Below are positions 36,668 through 62,500 of a stretch of DNA of 64,000 bases, piece after piece; position 1 is the stretch's first letter; every line of letters starts with the position of its first letter. The stretch is from Siphonodentalium dalli (taxonomy: Eukaryota; Mollusca; Scaphopoda; Gadilida; Siphonodentaliidae), in contig CP136069.1 in assembly GCA_032622095.1 (NCBI GenBank), forward strand, positions 105,366,278 to 105,430,277. The letters run 5' to 3'. Made by a program: the position numbers and the translations under genes. Under the pieces are notes generated by a model. The model worked only from the letters and a program-made list of their open reading frames with translations, made no database searches and had not been told where the DNA came from.

Positions 36668-38796
36668 TGAATGTCCTTATGGTGGTGTCAACATCCGTAC
36701 CAAATTTCATTTAGATCCGAGCAATACTGTTCAAGTTATGACATGAACAGACATTGGACTGATGTACGAACACACTGACGGACGCTCGGACGGACAGATG
36801 TTTAAACAGTATACCCCACTAATAATACCCGCTGACATTTGAGCTGTTATCTTGGATGCGGCCATCGTCTATAGTTCCCAGTATCTGTATATTCTTAAAT
36901 CCTGTCTAATCTGGAAGGGAAAAGAGAGAGACTAAAATAATGAAATACAAATCAAGGTGCAAAAACAAGAGATGGGGTATCGTCCGCTGAATACCACCTT
37001 GTGGCATAGTGCCTAATATATAACCTATGACTGATATACTCAGACAGATGGACACCAAAATTAGTATTTTCAAATAAACAAAGATGATCGAAATATAGAA
37101 CGAAAAACATAAACAAGACGATTGAACATATGCCATTGAATGTCCTTACGGTGGTGTCAACATTCGTACCAAATTTCATTTAGATCCGAGCAATACTGTT
37201 CCAAGTTATGACATGAACAGACATTGGACTGATGTACGAACACACTGACGGACGCTCGGACGGACAGATGTTTAAACAGTATACCCCCCCCCTAATAATA
37301 TCCACTGACATTTGAGCTGTTATCATGGATGCGGCCTTAATCTGTATAGTTCCCAGTATCTGTATATTCTTAAATCCTGTCTAATCTGGAAGGGAAAAGA
37401 GAGAGACTAAAATAATGAAATACAAATCACGGTGCAAAAACAAGAGATGGGGTATCGTCCGCTGAATACCACCTTGTGGCATAGTGCCTAACATATAACC
37501 TATGACTGATATACTCAGACAGATGGACACCAAAATTAGTATTTTCAAATAAACAAAGATGATCGAACTATAGAACGAAAAACCTAAACAAGACGATTGA
37601 ACATATGCCATTGAACGTCCTTATGGTGGTGTCAACATCTGTACCAAATTTCATTTAGATCCGAGCAATACTGTTCCAAGTTATGACATGAACAGACATT
37701 GGACTGATGTACGAACACACTGACGGACGCCCGTCCGGACAGATGTTTAAACAGTATACCCCCCTAATAATACCCACTGACATTTGAGCTGTTATCTTGG
37801 ATGCGGCCATCGTCTGTATAGTTCCCAGTATCTGTATATTCTTAAATCCTGTCTAATCTGGAAGGGAAAAGAGAGAGACTAAAATAATGAAATCCAAATC
37901 ACAGAGCAAAAACAAGAGATGGGGTATCGTCCGCTGAATACCAGCTTGTGGCATAGTGCCTAACATATAACCTATGACTGATATACTCAGACAGATGGAC
38001 ACCAAAATTAGTATTTTCAAATAAACAAAGATGATCGAACTATAGAACGAAAAACCTAAACAAGACGATTGAACATATGCCATTGAATGTCCTTATGGTG
38101 GTGTCAACATCCGTACCAAATTTAATTTAGATCTGAGCAATACTGTTCCAAGTTATGACATGAACAGAGATTGGACTGATGTACGAACACACTGACAGAC
38201 GCTCGGACGGACAAATGTTTAAACAGTATACCCCCCATAATAATACCCACTGAATTTGAGCTGTTATCTTGGATGTGGCCATCATCTGTATAGTTCCCAG
38301 TATCTGTATATTCTTAAATCCTGTCTAATCTGGAAGGGAAAAGAGAGAGACTAAAATAATGAAATACAAATCACGGTGCAAAAACAAGAGATGGTGTATC
38401 GTCCGCTGAATACCACCTTGTGGCATAGTGCCTAACATATAACCTATGACTGATATACTCAGACAGATGGACACCAAAATCAGTATTTTCAAATAAACAA
38501 AGATGATCGAACTATAGAACGAAAAACCTAAACAAGACGATTGAACATATGCCATTGAATGTCCTTACAGTGGTGTCAACATTCGTACCAAATTTCATTT
38601 AGATCCGAGCAATACTGTTCCAAGTTATGACATGAACAGACATTGGACTGATGTACGAAAACACTAACGGACGCTCGGACGGACATATGTTTAATCAGTA
38701 TACCCCCCTAATAATACCCACTGACATTTGAGCTGTTATCTTGGATGCGGCCATCGTCTGTATAGTTCCCAGTATCTGTATATTCTTAAATCCTGT

Positions 38797-39029
38797 CTAA
38801 TCTGGAAGGGATAAGAGAGAGACTAAAATAATGAAATACAAATCACGGTGCAAAAACAAGAGATGGGGTATCGTCCGCTGAATACCACCTTGTGTGGCAT
38901 AGTGGCTAACATATAACCTATGACTGATATACTCAGACAGATGGACACCAAAATTAGTATTTTCAAATAAACAAAGATGATCGAACTATAGAACGAAAAA
39001 CCTAAACAAGACGATTGAACATATGCCAT
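38797..39029 (-). other. Monomer ORF block with 2-bp frameshift
   Basis: A 'tg' insertion gives 'cttgtgtggc' (near 38,889-38,897) in place of 'cttgtggc', shifting the minus-strand frame after about residue 47 and ending the peptide at 68 residues. The insertion lies in a short GT run, consistent with slippage. Confidence 0.85.
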
Positions 39030-42000
39030 TGAATGTCCTTATGGTGGTGTCAACATCTGTACCAAATTTCATTTAGATCCGAGCAATACTGTTCCAAGTT
39101 ATGACACGAACAGACATTGGACTGATGTACGAACACACTGACGGACGCTCGGACGGACAGATGTTTAAACAGTTTACCCCCCTAATAATACCCACTGACA
39201 TTTGAGCTGTTATCATGGATGCGGCCTTAATCTTTATAGTTCCCAGTATCTGTATATTCTTAAATCCTGTCTAATCTGGAAGGGAAAAGAGAGAGACTAA
39301 AATAATGAAATACAAATCACGGTGCAAAAACAAGAGATGGGGTATCGTCCGCTGAATACCACCTTGTGGCATAGTGCCTAACATATAACCTATGACTGAT
39401 ATACTCAGACAGATGGACACCAAAATTAGTATTTTCAAATAAACAAAGATGATCGAACTATAAAACGAAAAACCTAAACAAGACGATTGAACATATGCCA
39501 TTGAATGTCCTTATGGTGGTGTCAACATCCGTACCAAATTTCATTTAGATCCGAGCAATACTGTTCAAGTTATGACATGAACAGACATTGGACTGATGTA
39601 CGAACACACTGACGGACGCTCGGACGGACAGATGTTTAAACAGTATACCCCACTAATAATACCCGCTGACATTTGAGCTGTTATCTTGGATGCGGCCATC
39701 GACTATAGTTCCCAGTATCTGTATATTCTTAAATCCTGTCTAATCTGGAAGGGAAAAGAGAGAGACTAAAATAATGAAATACAAATCAAGGTGCAAAAAC
39801 AAGAGATGGGGTATCGTCCGCTGAATACCACCTTGTGGCATAGTGCCTAACATATAACCTATGACTGATATACTCAGACAGATGGACACCAAAATTAGTA
39901 TTTTCAAATAAACAAAGATGATCGAAATATAGAACGAAAAACATAAACAAGACGATTGAACATATGCCATTGAATGTCCTTACGGTGGTGTCAACATTCG
40001 TACCAAATTTCATTTAGATCCGAGCAATACTGTTCCAAGTTATGACATGAACAGACATTGGACTGATGTACGAACACACTGACGGACGCTCGGACGGACA
40101 GATGTTTAAACAGTATACCCCCCCTAATAATATCCACTGACATTTGAGCTGTTATCATGGATGCGGCCTTAATCTGTATAGTTCCCAGTATCTGTATATT
40201 CTTAAATCCTGTCTAATCTGGAAGGGAAAAGAGAGAGACTAAAATAATGAAATACAAATCACGGTGCAAAAACAAGAGATGGGGTATCGTCCGCTGAATA
40301 CCACCTTGTGGCATAGTGCCTAACATATAACCTATGACTGATATACTCAGACAGATGGACACCAAAATTAGTATTTTCAAATAAACAAAGATGATCGAAC
40401 TATAGAACGAAAAACCTAAACAAGACGATTGAACATATGCCATTGAATGTCCTTATGGTGGTGTCAACATCTGTACCAAATTTCATTTAGATCCGAGCAA
40501 TACTGTTCCAAGTTATGACATGAACAGACATTGGACTGATGTACGAACACACTGACGGACGCCCGTCCGGACAGATGTTTAAACAGTATACCCCCCTAAT
40601 AATACCCACTGACATTTGAGCTGTTATCTTGGATGCGGCCATCGTCTGTATAGTTCCCAGTATCTGTATATTCTTAAATCCTGTCTAATCTGGAAGGGAT
40701 AAGAGAGAGACTAAAATAATGAAATACAAATCACGGTGCAAAAACAAGAGATGGGGTATCGTCCGCTGAATACCACCTTGTGGCATAGTGCCTAACATAT
40801 AACCTATGACTGATATACTCAGACAGATGGACACCAAAATTAGTATTTTCAAATAAACAAAGATGATCGAACTATAGAACGAAAAACCTAAACAAGACGA
40901 TTGAACATATGCCATTGAATGTCCTTATGGTGGTGTCAACATCTGTACCAAATTTCATTTAGATCCGAGCAATACTGTTCCAAGTTATGACACGAACAGA
41001 CATTGGACTGATGTATGAACACACTGACGGACAGATGTTTAAACAGTATACCCCCCCCCTAATAATACCCACTGACATTTGAGCTGTTATCATGAATGCG
41101 GCCTTAATCTGTATAGTTCCCAGTATCTGTATATTCTTAAATCCTGTCTAATCTGGAAGGGAAAAGAGAGAGACTAAAATAATGAAATACAAATCACGGT
41201 GCAAAAACAAGAGATGGGGTATCGTCCGCTGAATACCACCTTGTTGCATAGTGCCTAACATATAACCTATGACTGATATACTCAGACAGATGGACACCAA
41301 AATTAGTATTTTCAAATAAACAAAGATGATCGAACTATAGAACAAAAAACCTAAGCAAGACGATTGAACATATGCCATTGAATGTCCTTACGGTGGTGTC
41401 AACATTCGTACCAAATTTCATTTAGATCCGAGCAATACTGTTCCAAGTAATGACATGAACAGACATTGGACTGATGTACGAACACACTGACGGACGCTCG
41501 GACGGACATATGTTTAATCAGTATACCCCCCTAATAATACCCACTGACATTTGAGCTGTTATCTTGGATGCGGCCATCGTCTGTATAGTTCCCAGTATCT
41601 GTATATTCTTAAATCCTGTCTAATCTGGAAGGGAAAAGAGAGAGACTAAAATAATGAAATACAAATCACGGTGCAAAAACAAGAGATGGGGTATCGTCCG
41701 CTGAATACCACCTTGTGGCATAGTGCCTAACATATAACCTATGACTGATATACTCAGACAGATGGACACCAAAATTAGTATTTTCAAATAAACAAAGATG
41801 ATCGAACTATAGAACGAAAAACCTAAACAAGACGATTGAACATATGCCATTGAATGTCCTTATGGTGGTGTCAACATCTGTACCAAATTTCATTTAGATC
41901 CGAGCAATACTGTTCCAAGTTATGACACTAACAGACATTGGACTGATGTACGAACACACTGACAGACGCTCGGACGGACCTATGTTTAAACAGTATACCC

Positions 42001-42799
42001 CCCCTAATAATACCCACTGACATTTGAGCTGTTATCATGAATGCGGCCTTAATCTGTATTTGTTCCCAGTATCTGTATATTCTTAAATCCTGTCTAATCT
42101 GGAAGGGAAAAGAGAGAGACTAAAATAATGAAATACAAATCACGGTGCAAAAACAAGAGATGGGGTATCGTCCGCTGAATACCACCTTGTGGCATAGTGC
42201 CTAACATATAACCTATGACTGATATACTCAGACAGATGGACACCAAAATTAGTATTTTCAAATAAACAAAGATGATCGTACTATAGAACGAAAAACGTAA
42301 ACAAGACGATTGAACATATGCCATTGAATGTCCTTATAGTGGTGTCAACATCTGTACCAAATTTCATTTAGATCCGAGCAATACTGTTCCAAGTTATGAC
42401 ATGAACAGACATCGGACTGATGTACGAACACACTGACGGACGCTCGGACCGACAGATGTTTAAACAGTATACCCCCCCCCTAATAATACCCACTGACATT
42501 TGAGCTGTTATCTTGGATGCGGCTATCGTCTGTATAGTTCCCAGTATCTGTATATTCTTAAATCCTGTCTAATCTGGAAGGGAAAAGAGAGAGACTAAAA
42601 TAATGAAATACAAATCACGGTGCAAAAACAAGAGATGGGGTATCGTCCGCTGAATACCACCTTGTGGCATAGTGCCTAACATATAACCTATGACTGATAT
42701 ACTCAGACAGATGGACACCAAAATTAGTATTTTCAAATAAACAAAGATGATCGAACTATAGAACGAAAAACCTAAACAAGACGATTGAACATATGCCAT
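39030..42799 (-). repeat. 8-unit higher-order repeat, copy 1 (3,770 bp)
   Basis: Eight units starting at 39,271, 39,740, 40,213, 40,685, 41,148, 41,620, 42,094 and 42,569 recur in identical subtype order 3,769-3,770 bp later. Diagnostic features are the 'cagtttaccccc' linker near 39,171, the YIS unit, the 'gcccgtccgg' linker, the SLLSLPD unit, the 12-bp GGAC deletion (41,026-41,034) and the MQQ unit. Confidence 0.9.
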
Positions 42800-45700
42800 T
42801 GAATGTCCTTATGGTGGTGTCAACATCTGTACCAAATTTCATTTAGATCCGAGCAATACTGTTCCAAGTTATGACACGAACAGACATTGGACTGATGTAC
42901 GAACACACTGACGGACGCTCGGACGGACAGATGTTTAAACAGTTTACCCCCCTAATAATACCCACTGACATTTGAGCTGTTATCATGGATGCGGCCTTAA
43001 TCTTTATAGTTCCCAGTATCTGTATATTCTTAAATCCTGTCTAATCTGGAAGGGAAAAGAGAGAGACTAAAATAATGAAATACAAATCACGGTGCAAAAA
43101 CAAGAGATGGGGTATCGTCCGCTGAATACCACCTTGTGGCATAGTGCCTAACATATAACCTATGACTGATATACTCAGACAGATGGACACCAAAATTAGT
43201 ATTTTCAAATAAACAAAGATGATCGAACTATAAAACGAAAAACCTAAACAAGACGATTGAACATATGCCATTGAATGTCCTTATGGTGGTGTCAACATCC
43301 GTACCAAATTTCATTTAGATCCGAGCAATACTGTTCAAGTTATGACATGAACAGACATTGGACTGATGTACGAACACACTGACGGACGCTCGGACGGACA
43401 GATGTTTAAACAGTATACCCCACTAATAATACCCGCTGACATTTGAGCTGTTATCTTGGATGCGGCCATCGACTATAGTTCCCAGTATCTGTATATTCTT
43501 AAATCCTGTCTAATCTGGAAGGGAAAAGAGAGAGACTAAAATAATGAAATACAAATCAAGGTGCAAAAACAAGAGATGGGGTATCGTCCGCTGAATACCA
43601 CCTTGTGGCATAGTGCCTAACATATAACCTATGACTGATATACTCAGACAGATGGACACCAAAATTAGTATTTTCAAATAAACAAAGATGATCGAAATAT
43701 AGAACGAAAAACATAAACAAGACGATTGAACATATGCCATTGAATGTCCTTACGGTGGTGTCAACATTCGTACCAAATTTCATTTAGATCCGAGCAATAC
43801 TGTTCCAAGTTATGACATGAACAGACATTGGACTGATGTACGAACACACTGACGGACGCTCGGACGGACAGATGTTTAAACAGTATACCCCCCCTAATAA
43901 TATCCACTGACATTTGAGCTGTTATCATGGATGCGGCCTTAATCTGTATAGTTCCCAGTATCTGTATATTCTTAAATCCTGTCTAATCTGGAAGGGAAAA
44001 GAGAGAGACTAAAATAATGAAATACAAATCACGGTGCAAAAACAAGAGATGGGGTATCGTCCGCTGAATACCACCTTGTGGCATAGTGCCTAACATATAA
44101 CCTATGACTGATATACTCAGACAGATGGACACCAAAATTAGTATTTTCAAATAAACAAAGATGATCGAACTATAGAACGAAAAACCTAAACAAGACGATT
44201 GAACATATGCCATTGAATGTCCTTATGGTGGTGTCAACATCTGTACCAAATTTCATTTAGATCCGAGCAATACTGTTCCAAGTTATGACATGAACAGACA
44301 TTGGACTGATGTACGAACACACTGACGGACGCCCGTCCGGACAGATGTTTAAACAGTATACCCCCCTAATAATACCCACTGACATTTGAGCTGTTATCTT
44401 GGATGCGGCCATCGTCTGTATAGTTCCCAGTATCTGTATATTCTTAAATCCTGTCTAATCTGGAAGGGATAAGAGAGAGACTAAAATAATGAAATACAAA
44501 TCACGGTGCAAAAACAAGAGATGGGGTATCGTCCGCTGAATACCACCTTGTGGCATAGTGCCTAACATATAACCTATGACTGATATACTCAGACAGATGG
44601 ACACCAAAATTAGTATTTTCAAATAAACAAAGATGATCGAACTATAGAACGAAAAACCTAAACAAGACGATTGAACATATGCCATTGAATGTCCTTATGG
44701 TGGTGTCAACATCTGTACCAAATTTCATTTAGATCCGAGCAATACTGTTCCAAGTTATGACACGAACAGACATTGGACTGATGTATGAACACACTGACGG
44801 ACAGATGTTTAAACAGTATACCCCCCCCTAATAATACCCACTGACATTTGAGCTGTTATCATGAATGCGGCCTTAATCTGTATAGTTCCCAGTATCTGTA
44901 TATTCTTAAATCCTGTCTAATCTGGAAGGGAAAAGAGAGAGACTAAAATAATGAAATACAAATCACGGTGCAAAAACAAGAGATGGGGTATCGTCCGCTG
45001 AATACCACCTTGTTGCATAGTGCCTAACATATAACCTATGACTGATATACTCAGACAGATGGACACCAAAATTAGTATTTTCAAATAAACAAAGATGATC
45101 GAACTATAGAACAAAAAACCTAAGCAAGACGATTGAACATATGCCATTGAATGTCCTTACGGTGGTGTCAACATTCGTACCAAATTTCATTTAGATCCGA
45201 GCAATACTGTTCCAAGTAATGACATGAACAGACATTGGACTGATGTACGAACACACTGACGGACGCTCGGACGGACATATGTTTAATCAGTATACCCCCC
45301 TAATAATACCCACTGACATTTGAGCTGTTATCTTGGATGCGGCCATCGTCTGTATAGTTCCCAGTATCTGTATATTCTTAAATCCTGTCTAATCTGGAAG
45401 GGAAAAGAGAGAGACTAAAATAATGAAATACAAATCACGGTGCAAAAACAAGAGATGGGGTATCGTCCGCTGAATACCACCTTGTGGCATAGTGCCTAAC
45501 ATATAACCTATGACTGATATACTCAGACAGATGGACACCAAAATTAGTATTTTCAAATAAACAAAGATGATCGAACTATAGAACGAAAAACCTAAACAAG
45601 ACGATTGAACATATGCCATTGAATGTCCTTATGGTGGTGTCAACATCTGTACCAAATTTCATTTAGATCCGAGCAATACTGTTCCAAGTTATGACACTAA

Positions 45701-46569
45701 CAGACATTGGACTGATGTACGAACACACTGACAGACGCTCGGACGGACCTATGTTTAAACAGTATACCCCCCCTAATAATACCCACTGACATTTGAGCTG
45801 TTATCATGAATGCGGCCTTAATCTGTATTTGTTCCCAGTATCTGTATATTCTTAAATCCTGTCTAATCTGGAAGGGAAAAGAGAGAGACTAAAATAATGA
45901 AATACAAATCACGGTGCAAAAACAAGAGATGGGGTATCGTCCGCTGAATACCACCTTGTGGCATAGTGCCTAACATATAACCTATGACTGATATACTCAG
46001 ACAGATGGACACCAAAATTAGTATTTTCAAATAAACAAAGATGATCGTACTATAGAACGAAAAACGTAAACAAGACGATTGAACATATGCCATTGAATGT
46101 CCTTATAGTGGTGTCAACATCTGTACCAAATTTCATTTAGATCCGAGCAATACTGTTCCAAGTTATGACATGAACAGACATCGGACTGATGTACGAACAC
46201 ACTGACGGACGCTCGGACCGACAGATGTTTAAACAGTATACCCCCCCCCCTAATAATACCCACTGACATTTGAGCTGTTATCTTGGATGCGGCTATCGTC
46301 TGTATAGTTCCCAGTATCTGTATATTCTTAAATCCTGTCTAATCTGGAAGGGAAAAGAGAGAGACTAAAATAATGAAATACAAATCACGGTGCAAAAACA
46401 AGAGATGGGGTATCGTCCGCTGAATACCACCTTGTGGCATAGTGCCTAACATATAACCTATGACTGATATACTCAGACAGATGGACACCAAAATTAGTAT
46501 TTTCAAATAAACAAAGATGATCGAACTATAGAACGAAAAACCTAAACAAGACGATTGAACATATGCCAT
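42800..46569 (-). repeat. 8-unit higher-order repeat, copy 2 (3,770 bp)
   Basis: This is the adjacent second copy, with units at 43,041, 43,510, 43,983, 44,455, 44,917, 45,389, 45,863 and 46,339. It is nearly identical to copy 1. C-run lengths are among the few differences: 9 at the end of the line near 42,480 versus 10 at 46,241-46,250. The pattern breaks just after 46,569. Confidence 0.9.
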
Positions 46570-47516
46570 TGAATGTCCTTATGGTGGTGTCAACATCTGT
46601 ACCAAATTTCATTTAGATCCGAGCAATACTGTTCCAAGTTATGACACGAACAGACATTGGACTGATGTACGAACACACTGACAGACGCTCGGACGGACCT
46701 ATGTTTAAACAGTATACCCCCCTAATAATACCCACTGACATTTGAGCTGTTATCATGAATGCGGCCTTAATCTGTATTTGTTCCCAGTATCTGTATATTC
46801 TTAAATCCTGTCTAATCTGGAAGGGAAAAGAGAGAGACTAAAATAATGAAATACAAATCACGGTGCAAAAACAAGAGATGGGGTATCGTCCGCTGAATAC
46901 CACCTTGTGGCATAGTGCCTAACATATAACCTATGACTGATATACTCAGACAGATGGACACCAAAATTAGTATTTTCAAATAAACAAAGATGATCGTACT
47001 ATAGAACGAAAAACGTAAACAAGACGATTGAACATATGCCATTGAATGTCCTTATAGTGGTGTCAACATCTGTAGCAAATTTCATTTAGATCCGAGCAAT
47101 ACTGTTCCAATTTATGACATGAACAGACATCGGACTGATGTACGAACACACTGACGGACGCTCGGACCGACAGATGTTTAAACAGTATACCCCCCCCTAA
47201 TAATACCCACTGACATTTGAGCTGTTATCTTGGATGCGGCCATCGTCTGTATAGTTCCCAGTATCTGTATACTCTTAAATCCTGTCTAATCTGGAAGGTA
47301 AAAGAGGGAGACTAAAATAATGAAATACAAATCACGGTGCAAAAACAAGAGATGGGGTATCGTCCGCTGAATACCACCTTGTGGCATAGTGCCTAACATA
47401 TAACCTATGACTGATATACTCAGACAGATGGACACCAAAATTAGTATTTTCAAATAAACAAAGATGATCGAACTATAGAACGAAAAACCTAAACAAGACG
47501 ATTGAACATATGCCAT

Positions 47517-47876
47517 TGAATGTCCTTATGGTGGTGTCAACATCTGTACCAAATTTCATTTAGATCCGAGCAATACTGTTCCAAGTTATGACACGAACAG
47601 ACATTGGACTGATGTACGAACACACTGACAGACGCTCGGACGGACCTATGTTTAAACAGTAAACCCCCCATAATAATACCCACTGAATTTGAGCTGTTAT
47701 CTTGGATGTGGCAATCGTCTGTATAGTTCCCAGTATCTGTATATTCTTAAATCCTGTCTAATCTGGAAGGGAAAAGAGAGAGACTAAAATAATGAAATAC
47801 AAATCACGGTGCAAAAACAAGAGATGGGGTATCGTCCGCTGAATACCACCTTGTGGCATAGTGCCTAACATATAAC
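47517..47876 (-). repeat. Truncated 360-bp monomer at the left island junction
   Basis: The last left monomer stops within the ORF half at 'gcctaacatataac', where an intact unit continues 'ctatgactg'. Only the C-terminal part of the ORF block remains (47,758-47,876). Its linker is a mosaic: the 'ggacctatg' word of one subtype is joined to the 'ataataatacccactgaatt' word of another. Confidence 0.9.
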
Positions 47877-48187
47877 GCCCTTACCAAAATGTCCTAGGAT
47901 ATCCAAGGAATTCCTAGGATATCCTAGGAATAAAAGCTTGGAAAAGTTAGGAAAATTCCTTGGAATTCCTAGGATATCCTAGGATTAGAGACCTTGGAAA
48001 AGCTGGGAAATCCTTGGGGCGGTATTGGCCCGTTTCAAGTTCGGAAAACCTTGGAATACCTCAGCAAATTAAACCGAGCTTATCCAAGGATTTCCAAGCT
48101 TTACAAAATCTTAATCATAACTTTACCAAGCTTTACCAAGGTTTCCAATCTAGCTTTACCTAGCTTTACCAAGGTTCCAGCCTAACT
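47877..48187 (+). repeat. Left inverted arm of the central island (311 bp)
   Basis: This non-satellite arm begins 'gcccttaccaaaatgtcc' and is reverse-complementary to 48,782-49,092. I find only two mismatches on reading it through: 'ccgagc' versus 'ccaagc', and 'ttaccaagc' versus 'ttacccagc'. It is dense in CCWWGG words (CCTAGG, CCAAGG, CCTTGG). Two small open frames (47,960-48,163 and 47,994-48,185) are mirrored in the other arm and show no coding character. Its inner edge lies in the 32-bp tandem repeat. Confidence 0.9.
47893..47928. repeat. CCWWGG words phased at 10 bp
   Basis: Four CCWWGG hexamers start at 47,893, 47,903, 47,913 and 47,923, separated by ATAT or AATT. The last two form the perfect 16-base palindrome CCTAGGATATCCTAGG, which occurs again at 47,968-47,983 and, in the other arm, at 48,986-49,001 and 49,041-49,056. 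The spacing equals about one helical turn. Confidence 0.85.
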
Positions 48188-48372
48188 TTACCTAGCTTTA
48201 CCAAGGTTCCAGCCTAGCTTTACCTAGCTTTACCAAGGTTCCAGCCTAGCTTTACCTAGCTTTAACAATCTTTACCAAGGTTCCAGCCTAGCTTTACCTA
48301 GCTTTACCAAGGTTCCAGCTCAGCTTTTCCAAGCTTTACCAAGGTTCCAGCCTAGCTTTTCCAAGCTTTACC
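48131..48372 (+). repeat. 32-bp tandem repeat with 10-bp subrepeat
   Basis: The word 'aaggttccag' recurs at 48,171, 48,203, 48,235, 48,277, 48,309 and 48,341. The steps are 32 bp, except one of 42 bp that contains an extra 10-bp subunit. Within each copy 'tagctttacc' is itself repeated, giving a 10-bp subperiod. Degenerate copies ('agctttaccaagctttacc') continue to about 48,472. Only the first copy falls in the mirrored arm; the rest lie in the spacer on the left side only. Confidence 0.8.
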
Positions 48373-48472
48373 AAGCTTTCCAACCTAACTTTACCAAGCT
48401 TTACCAAGGTTGTAAATGACCTTGGCCAAGGTTGTAACTCAGCTTTACCAAGCTTTACCAAGGTTGCAATTG

Positions 48473-48781
48473 TTTTGTATTTAAAAGGTTAAAATCTCTA
48501 ATGACACTGCAAAGGCTTCAACTTTGACAATATTATCATCATTAATGATACAATCTCTTGAAATTTACAAGTCATGAACCATGCCATATAATCATTCATG
48601 ATATTATTCATTCAAAGTTCACTTTTCAGTCAGAATTTTGTTATTCTATTTAGATTGAGATAAATGGTACCTTATACCCTGTAAAATGTATATAATAATA
48701 TTCACAGGTATATATTTATGGATCTGAGGTATTTGGAGTGTGATAAAACAGTTAAATTAGATAAATTAGCTGAGAATATAT
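48473..48781. other. AT-rich part of the palindrome spacer
   Basis: About 310 bp of unique AT-rich sequence separate the 32-bp repeat from the right arm. I see no open frame, RNA gene or terminal motif. A 12-base palindrome ATCATTAATGAT lies at 48,538-48,549. This is the only sequence near the centre that is single-copy in the window. Confidence 0.7.
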
Positions 48782-49092
48782 AGTTAGGCTGGAACCTTGG
48801 TAAAGCTAGGTAAAGCTAGATTGGAAACCTTGGTAAAGCTGGGTAAAGTTATGATTAAGATTTTGTAAAGCTTGGAAATCCTTGGATAAGCTTGGTTTAA
48901 TTTGCTGAGGTATTCCAAGGTTTTCCGAACTTGAAACGGGCCAATACCGCCCCAAGGATTTCCCAGCTTTTCCAAGGTCTCTAATCCTAGGATATCCTAG
49001 GAATTCCAAGGAATTTTCCTAACTTTTCCAAGCTTTTATTCCTAGGATATCCTAGGAATTCCTTGGATATCCTAGGACATTTTGGTAAGGGC
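48782..49092 (-). repeat. Right inverted arm of the central island (311 bp)
   Basis: It is the reverse complement of 47,877-48,187. It ends at 'gtaagggc' against 'gttatatgttaggcac' of the satellite, the exact mirror of the left junction. The satellite orientation flips across the island and there is no direct target duplication, so the island does not look like a simple transposon insertion. Confidence 0.9.
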
Positions 49093-50630
49093 GTTATATG
49101 TTAGGCACTATGCCACAAGGTGGTATTCAGCGGACGATACCCCATCTCTTGTTTTTGCACCGTGATTTGTATTTCATTATTTTAGTCTCTCTCTTTTCCC
49201 TTCCAGATTAGACAGGATTTAAGAATATACAGATACTGGGAACTATACAGACGATTGCCACATCCAAGATAACAGCTCAAATTCAGTGGGTATTATTATG
49301 GGGGGTTTACTGTTTAAACATAGGTCCGTCCGAGCGTCTGTCAGTGTGTTCGTACATCAGTCCAATGTCTGGTTGTGTCATAACTTGGAACATTATTGCT
49401 CGGATCTAAATGAAATTTGGTACAGATGTTGACACCACCATAAGGACATTCAATGGCATATGTTCAATCGTCTTGTTTAGGTTTTTCGTTCTATAGTTCG
49501 ATCATCTTTGTTTATTTGAAAATACTAATTTTGGTGTCCATCTGTCTGAGTATATCAGTCATAGGTTATATGTTAGGCACTATGCCACAAGGTGGTATTC
49601 AGCGGACGATACCCCATCTCTTGTTTTTGCACCGTGATTTGTATTTCATTATTTTAGTCTCCCTCTTTTACCTTCCAGATTAGACAGGATTTAAGAGTAT
49701 ACAGATACTGGGAACTATACAGACGATGGCCGCATCCAAGATAACAGCTCAAATGTCAGTGGGTATTATTAGGGGGGGTATACTGTTTAAACATCTGTCG
49801 GTCCGAGCGTCCGTCAGTGTGTTCGTACATCAGTCCGATGTCTGTTCATGTCATAAATTGGAACAGTATTGCTCGGATCTAAATGAAATTTGCTACAGAT
49901 GTTGACACCACTATAAGGACATTCAATGGCATATGTTCAATCGTCTTGTTTACGTTTTTCGTTCTATAGTACGATCATCTTTGTTTATTTGAAAATACTA
50001 ATTTTGGTGTCCATCTGTCTGAGTATATCAGTCATAGGTTATATGTTAGGCACTATGCCACAAGGTGGTATTCAGCGGACGATACCCCATCTCTTGTTTT
50101 TGCACCGTGATTTGTATTTCATTATTTTAGTCTCTCTCTTTTCCCTTCCAGATTAGACAGGATTTAAGAATATACAGATACTGGGAACAAATACAGATTA
50201 AGGCCGCATTCATGATAACAGCTCAAATGTCAGTGGGTATTATTAGGGGGGGTATACTGTTTAAACATAGGTCCGTCCGAGCGTCTGTCAGTGTGTTCGT
50301 ACATCAGTCCAATGTCTGTTCGTGTCATAACTTGGAACAGTATTGCTCGGATCTAAATGAAATTTGGTACAGATGTTGACACCACCATAAGGACATTCAA
50401 TGGCATATGTTCAATCGTCTTGTTTAGGTTTTTCGTTCTATAGTTCGATCATCTTTGTTTATTTGAAAATACTAATTTTGGTGTCCATCTGTCTGAGTAT
50501 ATCAGTCATAGGTTATATGTTAGGCACTATGCCACAAGGTGGTATTCAGCGGACGATACCCCATCTCTTGTTTTTGCACCGTGATTTGTATTTCATTATT
50601 TTAGTCTCTCTCTTTTCCCTTCCAGATTAG

Positions 50631-52052
50631 ACAGGATTTAAGAATATACAGATACTGGGAACAAATACAGATTATGGCCGCATCCAAGATAACAGCTCAA
50701 ATGTCAGTGGGTATTATTAGGGGGGGTATACTGTTTAAACATAGTTCCGTCCGAGCGTCTGTCAGTGTGTTCGTACATCAGTCCAATGTCTGTTCGTGTC
50801 ATAACTTGGAACAGTGTTGCTCGGTTCTAAATGAAATTTGGTACAGATGTTGACACCACCATAAGGACATTCAATGGCATATGTTCAATCGTCTTGTTTA
50901 GGTTTTTCGTTCTATAGTTCGATCATCTTTGTTTATTTGAAAATACTAATTTTGGTGTCCATCTGTCTGAGTATATCAGTCATATGTTATATGTTAGGCA
51001 CTATGCCACAAGGTGGTATTCAGCGGACGATACCCCATCTCTTGTTTTTGCACCGTGATTTGTATTTCATTATTTTAGTCTCTCTCTTTTCCCTTCCAGA
51101 TTAGACAGGATTTAAGAATATACAGATACTGGGAACTATACAGACGATGGCCGCATCCAAGATAACAGCTCAAATGTCAGTGGGTATTATTAGGGGGGGG
51201 GTATACTGTTTAAACATCTGTCGGTCCGAGCGTCCGTCAGTGTGTTCGTACATCAGTCCGATGTCTGTTCATGTCATAACTTGGAACAGTATTGCTCGGA
51301 TCTAAATGAAATTTGGTACAGATGTTGACACCACTATAAGGACATTCAATGGCATATGTTCAATCGTCTTGTTTACGTTTTTCGTTCTATAGTACGATCA
51401 TCTTTGTTTATTTGAAAATACTAATTTTGGTGTCCATCTGTCTGAGTATATCAGTCATAGGTTATATGTTAGGCACTATGCCACAAGGTGGTATTCAGCG
51501 GACGATACCCCATCTCTTGTTTTTGCACCGTGATTTGTATTTCATTATTTTAGTCTCTCTCTTTTCCCTTCCAGATTAGACAGGATTTAAGAATATACAG
51601 ATACTGGGAACAAATACAGATTAAGGCCGCATTCATGATAACAGCTCAAATGTCAGTGGGTATTATTAGGGGGGTATACTGTTTAAACATAGGTCCGTCC
51701 GAGCGTCTGTCAGTGTGTTCGTACATCAGTCCAATGTCTGTTCGTGTCATAACTTGGAACAGTATTGCTCGGATCTAAATGAAATTTGGTACAGATGTTG
51801 ACACCACCATAAGGACATTCAATGGCATATGTTCAATCGTCTTGTTTAGGTTTTTCGTTCTATAGTTCGATCATCTTTGTTTATTTGAAAATACTAATTT
51901 TGGTGTCCATCTGTCTGAGTATATCAGTCATAGGTTATATGTTAGGCACTATGCCACAAGGTGGTATTCAGCGGACGATACCCCATCTCTTGTTTTTGCA
52001 CCGTGATTTGTATTTCATTATTTTAGTCTCTCTCTTTTCCCTTCCAGATTAG
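50631..52052 (+). repeat. Three extra monomers relative to the mirrored left arm
   Basis: The left arm goes from the unit at 46,339 to RFSFYST (45,863) to standard (45,389). The right arm goes 50,400, 50,874, 51,349, 51,822, 52,299, 52,775. The marker 'gacactaacag' (45,695) pairs with 'ctgttagtgtc' (52,690), so 45,389 pairs with 52,775 and about 1,425 bp (three monomers) are extra on the right. Which three were added is ambiguous, because 51,349/51,822 and 52,299/52,775 are themselves near-duplicates. Confidence 0.6.
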
Positions 52053-52298
52053 ACAGGATTTAAGAATATACAGATACTGGGAACTATACAGACGATGGCC
52101 GCATCCAAGATAACAGCTCAAATGTCAGTGGGTATTATTAGGGGGGGGGGGTATACTGTTTAAACATCTGTCGGTCCGAGCGTCCGTCAGTGTGTTCGTA
52201 CATCAGTCCGATGTCTGTTCATGTCATAACTTGGAACAGTATTGCTCGGATCTAAATGAAATTTGGTACAGATGTTGACACCACTATAAGGACATTCA

Positions 52299-52697
52299 AT
52301 GGCATATGTTCAATCGTCTTGTTTACGTTTTTCGTTCTATAGTACGATCATCTTTGTTTATTTGAAAATACTAATTTTGGTGTCCATCTGTCTGAGTATA
52401 TCAGTCATAGGTTATATGTTAGGCACTATGCCACAAGGTGGTATTCAGCGGACGATACCCCATCTCTTGTTTTTGCACCGTGATTTGTATTTCATTATTT
52501 TAGTCTCTCTCTCTTTTCCCTTCCAGATTAGACAGGATTTAAGAATATACAGATACTGGGAACAAATACAGATTAAGGCCGCATTCATGATAACAGCTCA
52601 AATGTCAGTGGGTATTATTAGGGGGGGTATACTGTTTAAACATAGGTCCGTCCGAGCGTCTGTCAGTGTGTTCGTACATCAGTCCAATGTCTGTTAG
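52299..52697 (+). other. Monomer ORF extended by a CT insertion
   Basis: A 2-bp 'ct' gain in the pyrimidine tract near 52,504-52,514 shifts the frame before the normal stop. The frame then stays open through the linker to give 132 codons. This is slippage in a CT run, not a longer gene. Confidence 0.85.
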
Positions 52698-53005
52698 TGT
52701 CATAACTTGGAACAGTATTGCTCGGATCTAAATGAAATTTGGTACAGATGTTGACACCACCATAAGGACATTCAATGGCATATGTTCAATCGTCTTGTTT
52801 AGGTTTTTCGTTCTATAGTTCGATCATCTTTGTTTATTTGAAAATACTAATTTTGGTGTCCATCTGTCTGAGTATATCAGTCATAGGTTATATGTTAGGC
52901 ACTATGCCACAAGGTGGTATTCAGCGGACGATACCCCATCTCTTGTTTTTGCACCGTGATTTGTATTTCATTATTTTAGTCTCTCTCTTTTCCCTTCCAG
53001 ATTAG

Positions 53006-54411
53006 ACAGGATTTAAGAATATACAGATACTGGGAACTATACAGACGATGGCCGCATCCAAGATAACAGCTCAAATGTCAGTGGGTATTATTAGGGGGGT
53101 ATACTGATTAAACATCTGTCCGTCCGAGCGTCCGTCAGTGTGTTCGTACATCAGTCCAATGTCTGTTCATGTCATTACTTGGAACAGTATTGCTCGGATC
53201 TAAATGAAATTTGGTACGAATGTTGACACCACCGTAAGGACATTCAATGGCATATGTTCAATCGTCTTGTTTAGGTTTTTCGATCTATAGTTCGATCATC
53301 TTTGTTTATTTGAAAATACTAATTTTGGTGTCCATCTGTCTGAGTATATCAGTCATAGGTTATATGTTAGGCACTATGCCACAAGGTGGTATTCAGCGGA
53401 CGATACCCCATCTCTTGTTTTTGCACCGTGATTTGTATTTCATTATTTTAGTCTCTCTCTTTTCCCTTCCAGATTAGACAGGATTTAAGAATATACAGAT
53501 ACTGGGAACTATACAGACGATTGCCACATCAAAGATAACAGCTCAAATTCAGTGGGTATTATTATGGGGGGTTTACTGTTTAAACATCTGTCCGTCCAAG
53601 CGTCCGTCAGTGTGTTCGTACATCAGTCCAATCTCTGTTCATGTCATAACTTGGAACAGTATTGCTCGGATCTAAATGAAATTTGGTACGGATGTTGACA
53701 CCACCATAAGGACATTCAATGGCATATGATCAATCGTCTTGTTTAGGTTTTTCGTTCTATAGTACGATCATCTTTGTTTATTTGAAAATACTAATTTTGG
53801 TGTCCATCTGTCTGAGTATATCAGTCATAGGTTATATGTTAGGCACTATGCCACAAGGTGGTATTCAGCGGACGATACCCCATCTCTTGTTTTTGCACCG
53901 TGATTTGTATTTCATTATTTTAGTCTCTCTCTTTTCCCTTCCAGATTAGACAGGATTTAAGAATATACAGATACTGGGAACTATACAGATTAAGGCCGCA
54001 TTCATGATAACAGCTCAAATGTCAGTGGGTATTATTAGGGGGGGGTATACTGTTTAAACATCTGTCCGTCAGTGTGTTCATACATCAGTCCAATGTCTGT
54101 TCGTGTCATAACTTGGAACAGTATTGCTCGGATCTAAATGAAATTTGGTACAGATGTTGACACCACCATAAGGACATTCAATGGCATATGTTCAATCGTC
54201 TTGTTTAGGTTTTTCGTTCTATAGTTCGATCATCTTTGTTTATTTGAAAATACTAATTTTGGTGTCCATCTGTCTGAGTATATCAGTCATAGGTTATATG
54301 TTAGGCACTATGCCACAAGGTGGTATTCAGCGGACGATACCCCATCTCTTGTTTTTGCACCGTGATTTGTATTTCATTATTTTAGTCTCTCTCTTATCCC
54401 TTCCAGATTAG
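53006..54411 (+). repeat. 3-unit higher-order repeat, copy 1 (1,406 bp)
   Basis: Units at 53,247, 53,719 (with AYDQ at the ORF start) and 54,181 (SLLSLPD) recur 1,406 bp later. The repeat includes the 'gattgccacatc' linker and the 12-bp GGAC deletion at 54,062-54,070, which makes one unit about 10 bp short. Confidence 0.9.
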
Positions 54412-55817
54412 ACAGGATTTAAGAATATACAGATACTGGGAACTATACAGACGATGGCCGCATCCAAGATAACAGCTCAAATGTCAGTGGGTATTATTAG
54501 GGGGGTATACTGATTAAACATCTGTCCGTCCGAGCGTCCGTCAGTGTGTTCGTACATCAGTCCAATGTCTGTTCATGTCATTACTTGGAACAGTATTGCT
54601 CGGATCTAAATGAAATTTGGTACGAATGTTGACACCACCGTAAGGACATTCAATGGCATATGTTCAATCGTCTTGTTTAGGTTTTTCGTTCTATAGTTCG
54701 ATCATCTTTGTTTATTTGAAAATACTAATTTTGGTGTCCATCTGTCTGAGTATATCAGTCATAGGTTATATGTTAGGCACTATGCCACAAGGTGGTATTC
54801 AGCGGACGATACCCCATCTCTTGTTTTTGCACCGTGATTTGTATTTCATTATTTTAGTCTCTCTCTTTTCCCTTCCAGATTAGACAGGATTTAAGAATAT
54901 ACAGATACTGGGAACTATACAGACGATTGCCACATCCAAGATAACAGCTCAAATTCAGTGGGTATTATTATGGGGGGTTTACTGTTTAAACATCTGTCCG
55001 TCCAAGCGTCCGTCAGTGTGTTCGTACATCAGTCCAATCTCTGTTCATGTCATAACTTGGAACAGTATTGCTCGGATCTAAATGAAATTTGGTACGGATG
55101 TTGACACCACCATAAGGACATTCAATGGCATATGATCAATCGTCTTGTTTAGGTTTTTCGTTCTATAGTACGATCATCTTTGTTTATTTGAAAATACTAA
55201 TTTTGGTGTCCATCTGTCTGAGTATATCAGTCATAGGTTATATGTTAGGCACTATGCCACAAGGTGGTACTCAGCGGACGATACCCCATCTCTTGTTTTT
55301 GCACCGTGATTTGTATTTCATTATTTTAGTCTCTCTCTTTTCCCTTCCAGATTAGACAGGATTTAAGAATATACAGATACTGGGAACTATACAGATTAAG
55401 GCCGCATTCATGATAACAGCTCAAATGTCAGTGGGTATTATTAGGGGGGGGTATACTGTTTAAACATCTGTCCGTCAGTGTGTTCATACATCAGTCCAAT
55501 GTCTGTTCGTGTCATAACTTGGAACAGTATTGCTCGGATCTAAATGAAATTTGGTACAGATGTTGACACCACCATAAGGACATTCAATGGCATATGTTCA
55601 ATCGTCTTGTTTAGGTTTTTCGTTCTATAGTTCGATCATCTTTGTTTATTTGAAAATACTAATTTTGGTGTCCATCTGTCTGAGTATATCAGTCATAGGT
55701 TATATGTTAGGCACTATGCCACAAGGTGGTATTCAGTGGACGATACCCCATCTCTTGTTTTTGCACCGTGATTTGTATTTCATTATTTTAGTCTCTCTCT
55801 TATCCCTTCCAGATTAG
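54412..55817 (+). repeat. 3-unit higher-order repeat, copy 2 (1,406 bp)
   Basis: This is the adjacent second copy, with units at 54,653, 55,125 (AYDQ) and 55,587 (SLLSLPD) and the GGAC deletion at 55,468-55,476. Few single-base differences are present, for example 'ggtactcag' for 'ggtattcag' near 55,267. Confidence 0.9.
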
Positions 55818-56290
55818 ACAGGATTTAAGAATATACAGATACTGGGAACTATACAGACGATGGCCGCATCCAAGATAACAGCTCAAATGTTAGTGGGTAT
55901 TATTAGGGGGGGTATACTGTTTAAACATCTGTCCGGACGAGCGTCCGTCAGTGTGTTCGTACATCTGTCCAATGTCTGTTCATGTCATAACTTGGAACAG
56001 TATTGCTCGGATCTAAATGAAATTTGGTACAGATGTTGACACCACCATAAGGACATTCAATGGCATATGTTCAATCGTCTTGTTTAGGTTTTTCGTTCTA
56101 TAGTTCGATCATCTTTGTTTATTTGAAAATACTAATTTTGGTGTCCATCTGTCTGAGTACATCAGTCATAGGTTATATGTTAGGCACTATGCCACAAGGT
56201 GGTATTCACCGGACGATACCCCATCTCTTGTTTTTGCACCGTGATTTGTATTTCATTATTTTAGTCTCTCTCTTTTCCCTTCCAGATTAG

Positions 56291-59200
56291 ACAGGATTTA
56301 AGAATATACAGATACTGGGAACTATACAGATTAAGGCCGCATCCATGATAACAGCTCAAATGTCAGTGGGTATTATTAGGGGGGTATACTGTTTAAACAT
56401 CTGTCCGTCCGAGCGACCGTCAGTGTGTTCGTACATCAGTCCAATGTCTGTTCATGTCATAACTTGGAACAGTATTGCTCGGATCTAAATGAAATTTGGT
56501 ACAGATGTTGACACCACCGTAAGGACATTCAATGGCATATGTTCAATCGTCTTGTTTAGGTTTTTCGTTCAAAAGTACGATCATCTTTGTTTATTTGAAA
56601 ATACTAATTTTGGTGTCCATCTGTCTGAGTATATCAATCATAGGTTATATGTTAGGCACTATGCCACAAGGTGGTATTCAGCGGACGATACCCCATCTCT
56701 TTTTTTTGCACCGTGATTTGTATTTCATTATTTTAGTCTCTCTCTTTTACCTTCCAGATTAGACAGGATTTTAGAGTAAACAGATACTGGGAACTATACA
56801 GACGATGGCCGCATCCAAGATAACAGCTCAAATATCAGTGGGTATTATTAGGGGGGTATACTGTTTAAACATCTGTCGGTCCGAGCGTCCGTCAGTGTGT
56901 TCGTACATCAGTCCGATGTCTGTTCATGTCATAACTTGGAACAGTATTGCTCGGATCTAAATGAAATTTGGTACAGATGTTGACACCACTATAAGGACAT
57001 TCAATCGCATATGTTCAATCGTCTTGTTTACGTTTTTCGTTCTATAGTACGATCATCTTTGTTTATTTGAAAATACTAATTTTGGTGTCCATCTGTCTGA
57101 GTATATCAGTCATAGGTTATATGTTAGGCACTATGCCACAAGGTGGTATTCAGCGGACGATACCCAATCTCTTGTTTTTGCACCGTGATTTGTATTTCAT
57201 TATTTTAGTCTCTCTCTTTTCCCTTCCAGATTAGACAGGATTTAAGAATATACAGATACGGGGAACAAATACAGATTAAGGCCGCATTCATGATAACAGC
57301 TCAAATGTCAGTGGGTATTATTAGGGGGGGTATACTGTTTAAACATCTGTCCGTCCGAGCGTGTCAGTGTGTTCGTACATCAGTCCGATGTCTGTTCATG
57401 TCATAACTTGGAACAGTATTGCTCGGATCTAAATGAAATTTGGTACAGATGTTGACACCACCATAAGGACATTCAATGGCATATGTTCAATCGTCTTGTT
57501 TAGGTTTTTCGTTCTATAGTTCGATCATCTTTGTTTATTTGAAAATACTAATTTTGGTGTCCATCTGTCTGAGTATATCAGTCATAGGTTATATGTTAGG
57601 CACTATGCCACAAGGTGGTATTCAGCGGACGATACCCCATCTCTTGTTTTTGCACCGTGATTTGTATTTCATTATTTTAGTCTCTCTCTTTTCCCTTCCA
57701 GATTAGACAGGATTTAAGAATATACAGATACTGGGAACTATACAGACGATGGCCGCATCCAAGATAACAGCTCAAATGTCAGTGGGTATTATTAGGGGGG
57801 TATACTGATTAAACATCTGTCCGTCCGAGGGTCCGTCAGTGTGTTCGTACATCAGTCCAATGTCTGTTCATGTCATTATTTGGAACAGTATTGCTCGGAT
57901 CTAAATGAAATTTGGTACGAATGTTGACACCACCGTAAGGACATTCAATGGCATATGTTCAATCGTCTTGTTTAGGTTTTTCGTTCTATAGTTCGATCAT
58001 CTTTGTTTATTTGAAAATACTAATTTTGGTGTGCATCTGTCTGAGTATATCAGTCATAGGTTATATGTTAGGCACTATGCCACAAGGTGGTATTCAGCGG
58101 ACGATACCCCATCTCTTGTTTTTGCACCGTGATTTGTATTTCATTATTTTAGTCTCTCTCTTTTCCCTTCCAGATTAGACAGGATTTAAGAATATACAGA
58201 TACTGGGAACTATACAAACGATGGCCGCATCCAAGATAACAGCTCAAATGTCAGTGGGTATTATTAGGGGGGTATACTGATTAAACATCTGTCCGTCCGA
58301 GCGTCCGTCAGTGTGTTCGTACATCAGTCCAATGTCTGTTCATGTCATTATTTGGAACAGTATTGCTCGGATCTAAATGAAATTTGGTACGAATGTTGAC
58401 ACCACTATAAGGACATTCAATGGCATATGTTCAATCGTCTTGTTTAGGTTTTTCGTTCTATAGTTCGATCATCTTTGTTTATTTGAAAATACTAATTTTG
58501 GTGTCCATCTGTCTGAGTATATCAGTCATAGGTTATATGTTAGGCACTATGCCACAAGGTGGTATTCAGCGGACGATACCCCATCTCTTATTTTGGCACC
58601 GTGATTTGTATTTCATTATTTTAGTCTCTCTCTTTTCCCTTCCAGATTAGACAGGATTTAAGAATATACAGATACTGGGAACTATACAGATTAAGGCCGC
58701 ATCCATGATAACAGCTCAAATGTCAGTGGATATTATTAGGGGGGGTATACTGTTTAAACATCTGTCCGTCCGAGCGTCTGTCAGTGTGTTCGTACATCAG
58801 TCCAATGTCTGTTCATGTCATAACTTGGAACAGTATTGCTCGGATCTAAATGAAATTTGGTACGAATGTTGACACCACCTTAAGGACATTCAATGGCATA
58901 TGTTCAATCGTCTTGTTTAGGTTTTTCGTTCTATATTTCGATCATCTTTGTTTATTTGAAAATACTAATTTTGGTGTCCATCTGTCTGAGTATATCAGTC
59001 ATAGGTTATATGTTAGGCACTTTGCCACAAGGTGGTATTCAGCGGACGATACCCCATCTCTTGTTTTTGCACCTTGATTTGTATTTCATTATTTTAGTCT
59101 CTCTCTTTTCCCTTCCAGATTAGACAGGATTTAAGAATATACAGATACTGGGAACTATACAGACGATGGCCGCATCCAAGATAACAGCTCAAATGTCAGC

Positions 59201-59594
59201 GGGTATTATTAGTGGGGTATACTGTTTAAACATCTGTCCGTCCGAGCGTCCGTCAGTGTGTTCGTACATCAGTCCAATGTCTGTTCATGTCATAACGTGA
59301 ACAGTATTGCTCGGATCTAAATGAAATTTGGTACGGATGTTGACACCACCGTAAGGACATTCAATGGCATATGTTCAATCATCTTGTTTAGGTTTTTCGT
59401 TTTATAGTTCGATCATCTTTGTTTATTTGAAAATACTAATTTTGGTGTCCATCTGTCTGAGTATATCAGTCATAGGTTATATGTTAGGCACTATGCCACA
59501 AGCTGGTATTCAGCGGACGATACCCCATCTCTTGTTTTTGCACCGTGATTTGTATTTCATTATTTTAGTCTCTCTCTTTTCTCTTCCAGATTAG
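56291..59594 (+). repeat. 7-unit higher-order repeat, copy 1 (~3,304 bp)
   Basis: Units at 56,532 (KST, FYLPD), 57,004, 57,476, 57,948, 58,420 (FWHRD), 58,893 (YIS, LGTL) and 59,364 recur in the same order about 3,305 bp later. The linker word 'gatacggggaacaaatac' is shared at 57,255 and 60,560. Confidence 0.85.
57004..57234 (+). other. Monomer ORF block without start codon
   Basis: The start ATG reads ATC ('attcaatcgcatatg'). The equivalent unit in the next 7-unit copy (60,309) keeps ATG, so the change followed the duplication or was corrected in one copy. Confidence 0.85.
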
Positions 59595-62500
59595 ACAGGA
59601 TTTAAGAATATACAGATACTGGGAACTATACAGATTAAGGCTGCATCCATGATAACAGCTCAAATGTCAGTGGGTATTATTAGGGGGGATATACTGTTTA
59701 AACATCTGTCCGTCTGAGCGTCCGTCAGTGTGTTCGTACATCAGTCCAATGTCTGTTCATGTCATAACTTGAACAGTATTGCTCGGATCTAAATGAAATT
59801 TGGTACAGATGTTGACACCACCGTAAGGACATTCAATGGCATATGTTCAATCGTCTTGTTTAGGTTTTTCGTTCAAAAGTACGATCATCTTTGTTTATTT
59901 GAAAATACTAATTTTGGTGTCCATCTGTCTGAGTATATCAATCATAGGTTATATGTTAGGCACTATGCCACAAGGTGGTATTCAGCGGACGATACCCCAT
60001 CTCTTGTTTATGCACCGTGATTTGTATTTCATTATTTTAGTCTCTCTCTTTTACCTTCCAGATTAGACAGGATTTAAGAGTAAACAGATACTGGGAACTA
60101 TACAGACGATGGCCGCATCCAAGATAACAGCTCAAATGTCAGTGGGTATTATTAGGGGGGGTATACTGTTTAAACATCTGTCGGTCCGAGCGTCCGTCAG
60201 TGTGTTCGTACATCAGTCCGATGTCTGTTCATGTCATAACTTGGAACAGTATTGCTCGGATCTAAATGAAATTTGGTACAGATGTTGACACTACTATAAG
60301 GACATTCAATGGCATATGTTCAATCGTCTTGTTTACGTTTTTCGTTCTATAGTACGATCATCTTTGTTTATTTGAAAATACTAATTTTGGTGTCCATCTG
60401 TCTGAGTATATCAGTCATAGGTTATATGTTAGGCACTATGCCACAAGGTGGTATTCAGCGGACGATACCCAATCTCTTGTTTTTGCACCGTGATTTGTAT
60501 TTCATTATTTTAGTCTCTCTCTTTTCCCTTCCAGATTAGACAGGATTTAAGAATATACAGATACGGGGAACAAATACAGATTAAGGCCGCATTCATGATA
60601 ACAGCTCAAATGTCAGTGGGTATTATTAGGGGGGGTATACTGTTTAAACATCTGTCCGTCCGAGCGTGTCAGTGTGTTCGTACATCAGTCCGATGTCTGT
60701 TCATGTCATAACTTGGAACAGTATTGCTCGGATCTAAATGAAATTTGGTACAGATGTTGACACCACCATAAGGACATTCAATGGCATATGTTCAATCGTC
60801 TTGTTTAGGTTTTTCGTTCTATAGTTCGATCATCTTTGTTTATTTGAAAATACTAATTTTGGTGTCCATCTGTCTGAGTATATCAGTCATAGGTTATATG
60901 TTAGGCACTATGCCACAAGCTGGTATTCAGCGGACGATACCCCATCTCTTGTTTTTGCACCGTGATTTGTATTTCATTATTTTAGTCTCTCTCTTTTCCC
61001 TTCCAGATTAGACAGGATTTAAGAATATACAGATACTGGGAACTATAACAGACGATGGCCGCATCCAAGATAACAGCTCAAATGTCAGTGGGTATTATTA
61101 GGGGGGTATACTGATTAAACATATGTCCGTCCGAGCGTCCGTCAGTGTGTTCGTACATCAGTCCAATGTCTGTTCATGTCATTATTTGGAACAGTATTGC
61201 TCGGATCTAAATGAAATTTGGTACGAATGTTGACACCACCGTAAGGACATTCAATGGCATATGTTCAATCGTCTTGTTTAGGTTTTTCGTTCTATAGTTC
61301 GATCATCTTTGTTTATTTGAAAATACTAATTTTGGTGTCCATCTGTCTGAGTATATCAGTCATAGGTTATATGTTAGGCACTATGCCACAAGGTGGTATT
61401 CAGCGGACGATACCCCATCTCTTGTTTTTGCACCGTGATTTGTATTTCATTATTTTAGTCTCTCTCTTTTCCCTTCCAGATTAGACAGGATTTAAGAATA
61501 TACAGATACTGGGAACTATACAAACGATGGCCGCATCCAAGATAACAGCTCAAATGTCAGTGGGTATTATTAGGGGGGTATACTGATTAAACATCTGTCC
61601 GTCCGAGCGTCCGTCAGTGTGTTCGTACATCAGTCCAATGTCTGTTCATGTCATTATTTGGAACAGTATTGCTCGGATCTAAATGAAATTTGGTACGAAT
61701 GTTGACACCACCGTAAGGACATTCAATGGCATATGTTCAATCGTCTTGTTTAGGTTTTTCATTCTATAGTTCGATCATCTTTGTTTATTTGACAATACTA
61801 ATTTTGGTGTCCATCTGTCTGAGTATATCAGTCATAGGTTATATGTTAGGCACTATGCCACAAGGTGGTATTCAGCGGATGATACCCCATCTCTTATTTT
61901 GGCACTGTGATTTGTATTTCATTATTTTAGTCTCTCTCTTTTCCCTTCCAGATTAGACAGGATTTAAGAATATACAGATACTGGGAACTATACAGATTAA
62001 GGCCGCATCCATGATAACAGCTCAAATGTCAGTGGATATTATTAGGGGGGGTATACTGTTTAAACATCTGTCCGTCCGAGCGTCTGTCAGTGTGTTCGTA
62101 CATCAGTCCAATGTCTGTTCATGTCATAACTTGGAACAGTATTGCTCGGATCTAAATGAAATTTGGTACGAATGTTGACACCACCTTAAGGACATTCAAT
62201 GGCATATGTTCAATCGTCTTGTTTAGGTTTTTCGTTCTATATTTCGATCATCTTTGTTTATTTGAAAATACTAATTTTGGTGTCCATCTGTCTGAGTATA
62301 TCAGTCATAGGTTATATGTTAGGCACTTTGCCACAAGGTGGTATTCAGCGGACGATACCCCATCTCTTGTTTTTGCACCTTGATTTGTATTTCATTATTT
62401 TAGTTTCTCTCTTTTCCCTTCCAGATTAGACAGGATTTAAGAATATACAGATACTGGGAACTATACAGACGATGGCCGCATCCAAGATAACAGCTCAAAT

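Follow-up and report, generated by a model that had tools for sequence, protein, structure and literature searches.

The stretch of Siphonodentalium dalli contig CP136069.1 analysed here (the window, 64,000 bp; G000:C9:105366278-105430277) holds a palindrome, known here from the assembled sequence, whose centre lies at 48,484.5 and in which arrays of a 472-bp satellite run in opposite orientations on either side of a 1,216-bp island. We conclude that this structure probably arose by fold-back inverted duplication at a dispersed repeat that would have broken beside the satellite array. An earlier note on this DNA had described an array reversing around a 1.2-kb island with this centre, and both Tandem Repeats Finder (TRF) and an inverted-repeat search confirmed that description. 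Satellite monomers are numbered outward from the island, L1, L2 and so on leftward and R1, R2 and so on rightward; the features are collected in Table 1.

The island is part of a dispersed repeat

The inverted-repeat search paired the island edges at 47877-48190 and 48779-49092 over 314 nt with 99% identity, leaving 588 nt between them. When the island was searched against the genome (2.2 Gb, nine contigs; 262 first-look candidates, 40 scored), the matches listed included 41 places above 760 bits. Among these, the full query (1-1216) was covered only by the window's own copy, and 38 of the other 40 places stopped at query position 906. Twenty of those 40 copies were fetched for close comparison. 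They are about 1.54-1.64 kb long and 85.7-97.4% identical to copy L009, and their flanks diverge at the repeat boundary. The common start CCCTTACCAAAATG and the common end TTTTTGCAAGGG were each found exactly in 16 of the 20. All 20 fetched copies extend past the position of the joint into one common further sequence and none carries the 314-bp inverted edge, which argues that the island is one such repeat, cut short at about 906 bp and joined to an inverted copy of its initial ~311 bp. The same base of the repeat abuts the satellite in both arms. The inverted duplication of satellite plus island edge that had been proposed earlier is thus supported, and the edge is, by this comparison, the 5' end of a dispersed repeat cut at about 906 bp.

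Priming of synthesis from a broken end that has folded back predicts inverted copies, a spacer in single copy and loss of the sequence beyond the break. In the window, inverted copies of the flanking sequence surround a spacer of about 590 bp that is present once (48188-48781), and past the break the repeat lacks about 0.7 kb of its ~1.6 kb. The starting point would have been a repeat of mobile-element type adjoining the left-oriented array, its first base against L1. A chromosome break or a failed replication fork about 906 bp into the repeat, suggested by the missing remainder, would have freed a strand that, judging from the joint, folded back on itself near position 311 of the repeat, where it primed outward synthesis. 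Copying in reverse would then have taken in the end of the repeat and at least ~22 kb of satellite. Mirror order is seen near the centre and near the far end, and duplication and loss of monomers within each arm would have come later. A double-strand break and a failed fork are both possible triggers. The palindrome probably has no selected function.

A foldback-type transposon with satellite in its terminal inverted repeats, like Tetris of Drosophila virilis, could give a similar look, and the palindrome would then be the element itself: inverted satellite arrays surround a short middle part, and the island edges are built from short subrepeats. We consider this very unlikely, given that the island belongs to the dispersed repeat and that satellite directly adjoins none of the 20 fetched copies; nor do any of these carry satellite in long inverted ends, as would an element of this kind at several loci. 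(In copy L009, 154 bp of satellite lies ~3.3 kb distant.) Classifying the island as a foldback element on the strength of its subrepeats was overruled by the native copies. In the description of Tetris/TIR-220 taken from PMC4079207, inverted tandem-repeat arrays likewise flank a middle domain, and satellite arrays reach up to 66 copies; in contrast to that element, the island repeat lacks satellite and long inverted ends in its other fetched copies.

The remaining satellite loci also speak against a transposon. Eight stretches (L055-L062) at six other loci (C1:172.6 Mb, C2:87.4 Mb, C4:144.3 Mb, C6:122.9 Mb, C1:171.6 Mb and C2:81.9 Mb) are each in one orientation and without the island repeat; these stretches are parts of arrays, and the C6 locus contains an unread gap. 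The same orientation test detected both orientations in the window at 44-53 kb, which served as the positive control. The loci came from a genome search that scored 9 out of 1600 first-look candidates, and their arrays are made of this satellite or a relative of it (77-98% identity, pieces >200 bp). That search listed a single strand at each of the six loci, but the window's own right arm was likewise absent from its list, and the orientations given here are those of the stretches themselves.

The two arms share ordered, mirrored monomers

The monomers nearest the island match closely across it. L1/R1, L2/R2 and L3/R3 differ at 3, 1 and 1 positions, compared with a median of 17 for pairs among the 127 monomers kept from the window (L19, 946 bp containing two unsplit monomers, and the end pieces L98 and R32 were left out). 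Alignment outward from the island gave three differences in the 314-bp edge, three in monomer 1 and, in monomers 2 and 3, a single-base indel apiece, and the divergence between the arms jumped sharply at monomer 4. No random monomer triplet in 200,000 summed to five differences or fewer, although this null disregards repeat order. A scan that kept the order returned 8 of 4600 adjacent triplets at or below five, all of them within mirrored blocks or within L22-L26, which belong to a left-arm duplicate of the outer mirrored block described below. Local alignment of monomer order reached a score of 25; the best of 500 shuffles was 18.

Three alleles common to L2 and R2 (47307/49662, 47111/49857 and 47075/49893) each occur in 2 of the 127 monomers. 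The right array continues beyond the window to window-relative position 73990, and its 24.9 kb comprise 52 full monomers and a further 334 bp. Once the entire right arm was included (148 monomers, 96 left and 52 right; L19, L98 and R53 left out), two alleles exclusive to L2 and R2 were left. Six alleles are found in exactly one left and one right monomer, and mirrored pairs hold three of these (L2/R2 twice, L40/R44 once). The single-base variants that had earlier been described as mirrored on both sides are confirmed.

Further out, L3-L7 pair with R6, R7, R8, R9 and R11 at 0, 2, 1, 4 and 1 differences, forming a shifted block. R9 is nearer to L61, L68 and L72 (2 differences) than to L6 (4). 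A fusion of R9 and R10 types was considered for L6 and rejected (4 differences, compared with 3 for another pairing). Over R15-R31 the best left-arm matches show 2-7 differences and no longer follow mirror order. Order reappears about 20 kb from the island in an outer block, where L39-L47 and R43-R51 differ by 4, 4, 0, 6, 1, 1, 1, 0 and 3, with a net shift of about three monomers. L40 and R44 share an allele absent from all others of the 148 monomers, and this favours L39-L47 as the partner of the outer right-arm monomers. Within the left arm, L20-L26 duplicate L41-L47. The extent given in the earlier note, 44,000-56,290, fits L8-R15 (44,102-56,171), but the palindrome is larger and the right half of its outer block lies outside the window.

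Two arrays might instead have met head to head through ordinary inversion or misinsertion, with no copying. Over the whole arms the register at 48,484.5 gives 96.37% identity and other registers reach 96.73%, so the mirror register is no better than others by this measure; it is not the best because register is lost after monomer 3. A meeting without copying is nevertheless extremely unlikely in view of the mirrored private alleles, the identical junction base on both sides and the collinear blocks of mirrored monomers towards each end of the right arm. The private alleles, the outer block and the order-keeping scan thereby bear out the earlier judgement that these are not just two arrays placed head to head.

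Satellite palindromes are difficult to assemble, and a fold-back chimeric read or a misjoin within the repeat could in principle have produced the structure. A simple read chimera would yield identical arms. The arms seen here differ by substitutions (three in R1), carry distinct higher-order repeats, are separated by a ~590-bp spacer and have different outer flanks, with no mirroring in the flanking stretches compared. As far as the assembled sequence can tell, a simple read chimera and an assembly misjoin are each unlikely, and we regard an artefact of any such kind as distinctly improbable.

Table 1. Features of the palindrome, in positions of the window unless marked otherwise.
Feature	Position	Strand	Remarks
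Left satellite array	1251..47876	-	~99 copies, 472-bp monomer; TRF and segmentation
Outer mirrored block L39-L47	25220..29472	-	Matches R43-R51 at window-relative 68923-73181; 20 differences in 9 monomers
Shifted mirrored block L3-L7 = R6-R9, R11	44574..46930	-	8 differences in 5 pairs
Inner mirrored block L1-L3, in exact register with R1-R3	46458..47876	-	5 differences in 3 monomers
5'-terminal ~906 bp of dispersed ~1.6-kb repeat	47877..48782	+	Edge, minisatellite (~10/32-bp units) and AT-rich core; ends at 48782
Original copy of the duplicated edge (initial ~311 bp of repeat)	47877..48187	+	Contains 22-bp and 18-bp perfect palindromes
Single-copy spacer between inverted copies	48188..48781	+	588-594 bp, according to where the joint is placed; normal part of the native repeat
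Putative fold-back joint	48782..48782	.	20/20 native copies continue; window switches to inverted edge; 1 bp (A) compatible with either side
Inverted edge copy	48782..49092	-	Inverted-repeat alignment
Right satellite array, inverted orientation	49093..64000 (window end)	+	472-bp monomer; TRF and extension from the genome
Right arm from R16, mirror order lost	56172..64000	+	Arm-specific ~7-monomer higher-order repeat (R18-R22 ~ R25-R29)

Divergence and turnover since the duplication

The arms diverge by 0.35% and 0.34% in the inner blocks, L3 being counted twice (against R3 and against R6), and by 0.47% in the outer block. The similar values in inner and outer blocks are compatible with one event. 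Y-chromosome palindromes have arms that are kept near-identical by gene conversion, and an older inverted duplication homogenised in this way could account for the very high identity beside the centre. Such conversion would be an addition to fold-back duplication, not a replacement for it, and we think it rather unlikely: a divergence at 20 kb that is about as low as that at the centre gives no sign of conversion restricted to the centre; conversion along the whole arms could still have contributed.

The middle of each arm has its own rearranged repeats. In the left arm, L4-L10 and L12-L18 show 2 differences over seven monomers (0.06%), significantly fewer than the mirrored pairs (13/3776 versus 2/3304, p = 0.009), so some left-arm duplications are younger than the palindrome. 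The right-arm duplications (8/2360) and the palindrome are indistinguishable in age (p = 1). Mirrored blocks (R1-R3, R6-R9, R11 and R43-R51) contain 17 of the 52 full right-arm monomers, with at most six differences per pair. It is possible, although we would not call it probable, that one fold-back event was followed by ~0.35-0.47% point divergence while the non-mirrored remainder of the right arm was rebuilt into arm-specific higher-order repeats. If so, the locus would be a natural clock for the speed of satellite reorganisation relative to mutation, and it would show the site of turnover in an array, here in the middle and not at the ends.

Several observations weigh against one fold-back event with the block assignments given above. 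R45-R51 fit L20-L26 almost as closely as they fit L41-L47 (14 differences against 12). An anchored order alignment picked L20-L26 for the outer block; its score was tied by 1 of 51 right-arm rotations and by 0 of 96 left-arm rotations. Mirror order is missing from about R16 to R42. Three of the six alleles limited to one left and one right monomer join monomers that are not mirrored (L96/R16, L96/R24 and L60/R36). At the joint, the inverted homology amounts to a 1-bp overlap, easily a matter of chance, and the ~590-bp spacer is shorter than any in the range of 766-70,466 bp that the account in PMC3907307 gives for human patients.

Comparison with known inverted structures

That account of human fold-back inverted duplications includes 21 sequenced junctions, all with a single-copy spacer and 13 with 2-8 bp of inverted microhomology (PMC3907307). 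Like the human cases, the S. dalli palindrome has a single-copy spacer starting at the break point and has lost the sequence beyond the break; it is unlike them in lying inside a satellite array, with ~22-25 kb copied, a shorter spacer and an overlap of a single base pair.

According to the Tribolium madens paper (PMC13081366), macro-dyad symmetries of satellite arrays had been documented in Tribolium only; a literature search for such symmetries found two papers, the second citing the first. The palindrome shares with them multi-kilobase inverted subarrays of one satellite and a short inversion site. The Tribolium structures feature inversion sites conserved across arrays, 3385 of 5764 TmSat2 arrays having all three key elements (PMC13081366). 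In S. dalli, by contrast, the inversion site appears to be a scar in a broken dispersed repeat, and inversion sites did not recur: 0 of the 8 stretches at the six other loci, which cover partial arrays, were bidirectional.

Fold-back inverted duplication is a known kind of DNA accident, and this locus offers a readable record of how an array was rearranged. The origin of head-to-head satellite arrays is seldom traceable. Here, intact copies of the repeat elsewhere in the genome fix the break point to the base and point to a class of mechanism, and the common start of the arms allows the rate and place of monomer turnover to be read against point mutation.

Island-edge palindromes, repeat insertion sites and other observations

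The left edge contains 10 perfect palindromes of at least 8 bp (mean 1.6 and maximum 7 in 300 shuffles); the two longest measure 22 and 18 bp. As single-stranded DNA it folds much better than shuffled sequence (z -7.3, 0/100), and these properties may favour breakage or folding. The earlier note suggested that such palindromes can extrude as cruciforms and drive further rearrangement; a spacer of ~590 bp makes cruciform extrusion of the long arms unlikely. The 22- and 18-bp palindromes of the island edges are better candidates for cruciforms than the long arms.

Neither a consistent target-site duplication nor a palindromic target of the dispersed repeat was detected in the 14 of 20 copies in which both ends were found by motif. 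For these 14, the inverted test gave an own mean of 11.5 versus 10.8 and the direct test 14.4 versus 10.8, the latter raised chiefly by L027 (46), L010 (20) and L026 (19). L027 contains two like-oriented copies of the repeat separated by about 3.0 kb, one of them flanked by ~25-bp direct repeats.

Pfam searches with four translations returned nothing at the cut-offs, Rfam on 46-51 kb gave nothing useful, and exact patterns searched in viral and prokaryote contigs and phage records led nowhere. A CENP-B-box-like motif had 0 matches on either strand. A literature search on the 472-bp satellite, inverted or head-to-head arrays and alpha-satellite inversions yielded nothing usable beyond the papers cited, and nothing was drawn from an oyster satellitome paper (PMC8268682).

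A 250-amino acid open frame at 554-1306 spans the boundary between the left flank and the first satellite monomer and is rich in Arg, Asp, Asn and Gln; it has no Pfam match, and by eye it looks like a low-complexity protein of a retroelement. Directly abutting the right array on its outer side is a foldback-like stretch of ~5.06 kb (G000:C9:105440268-105445324), the inverted ends of which span at least ~1.01 kb and are 99.2% identical (L049 3391-4400 and L050 34-1047).

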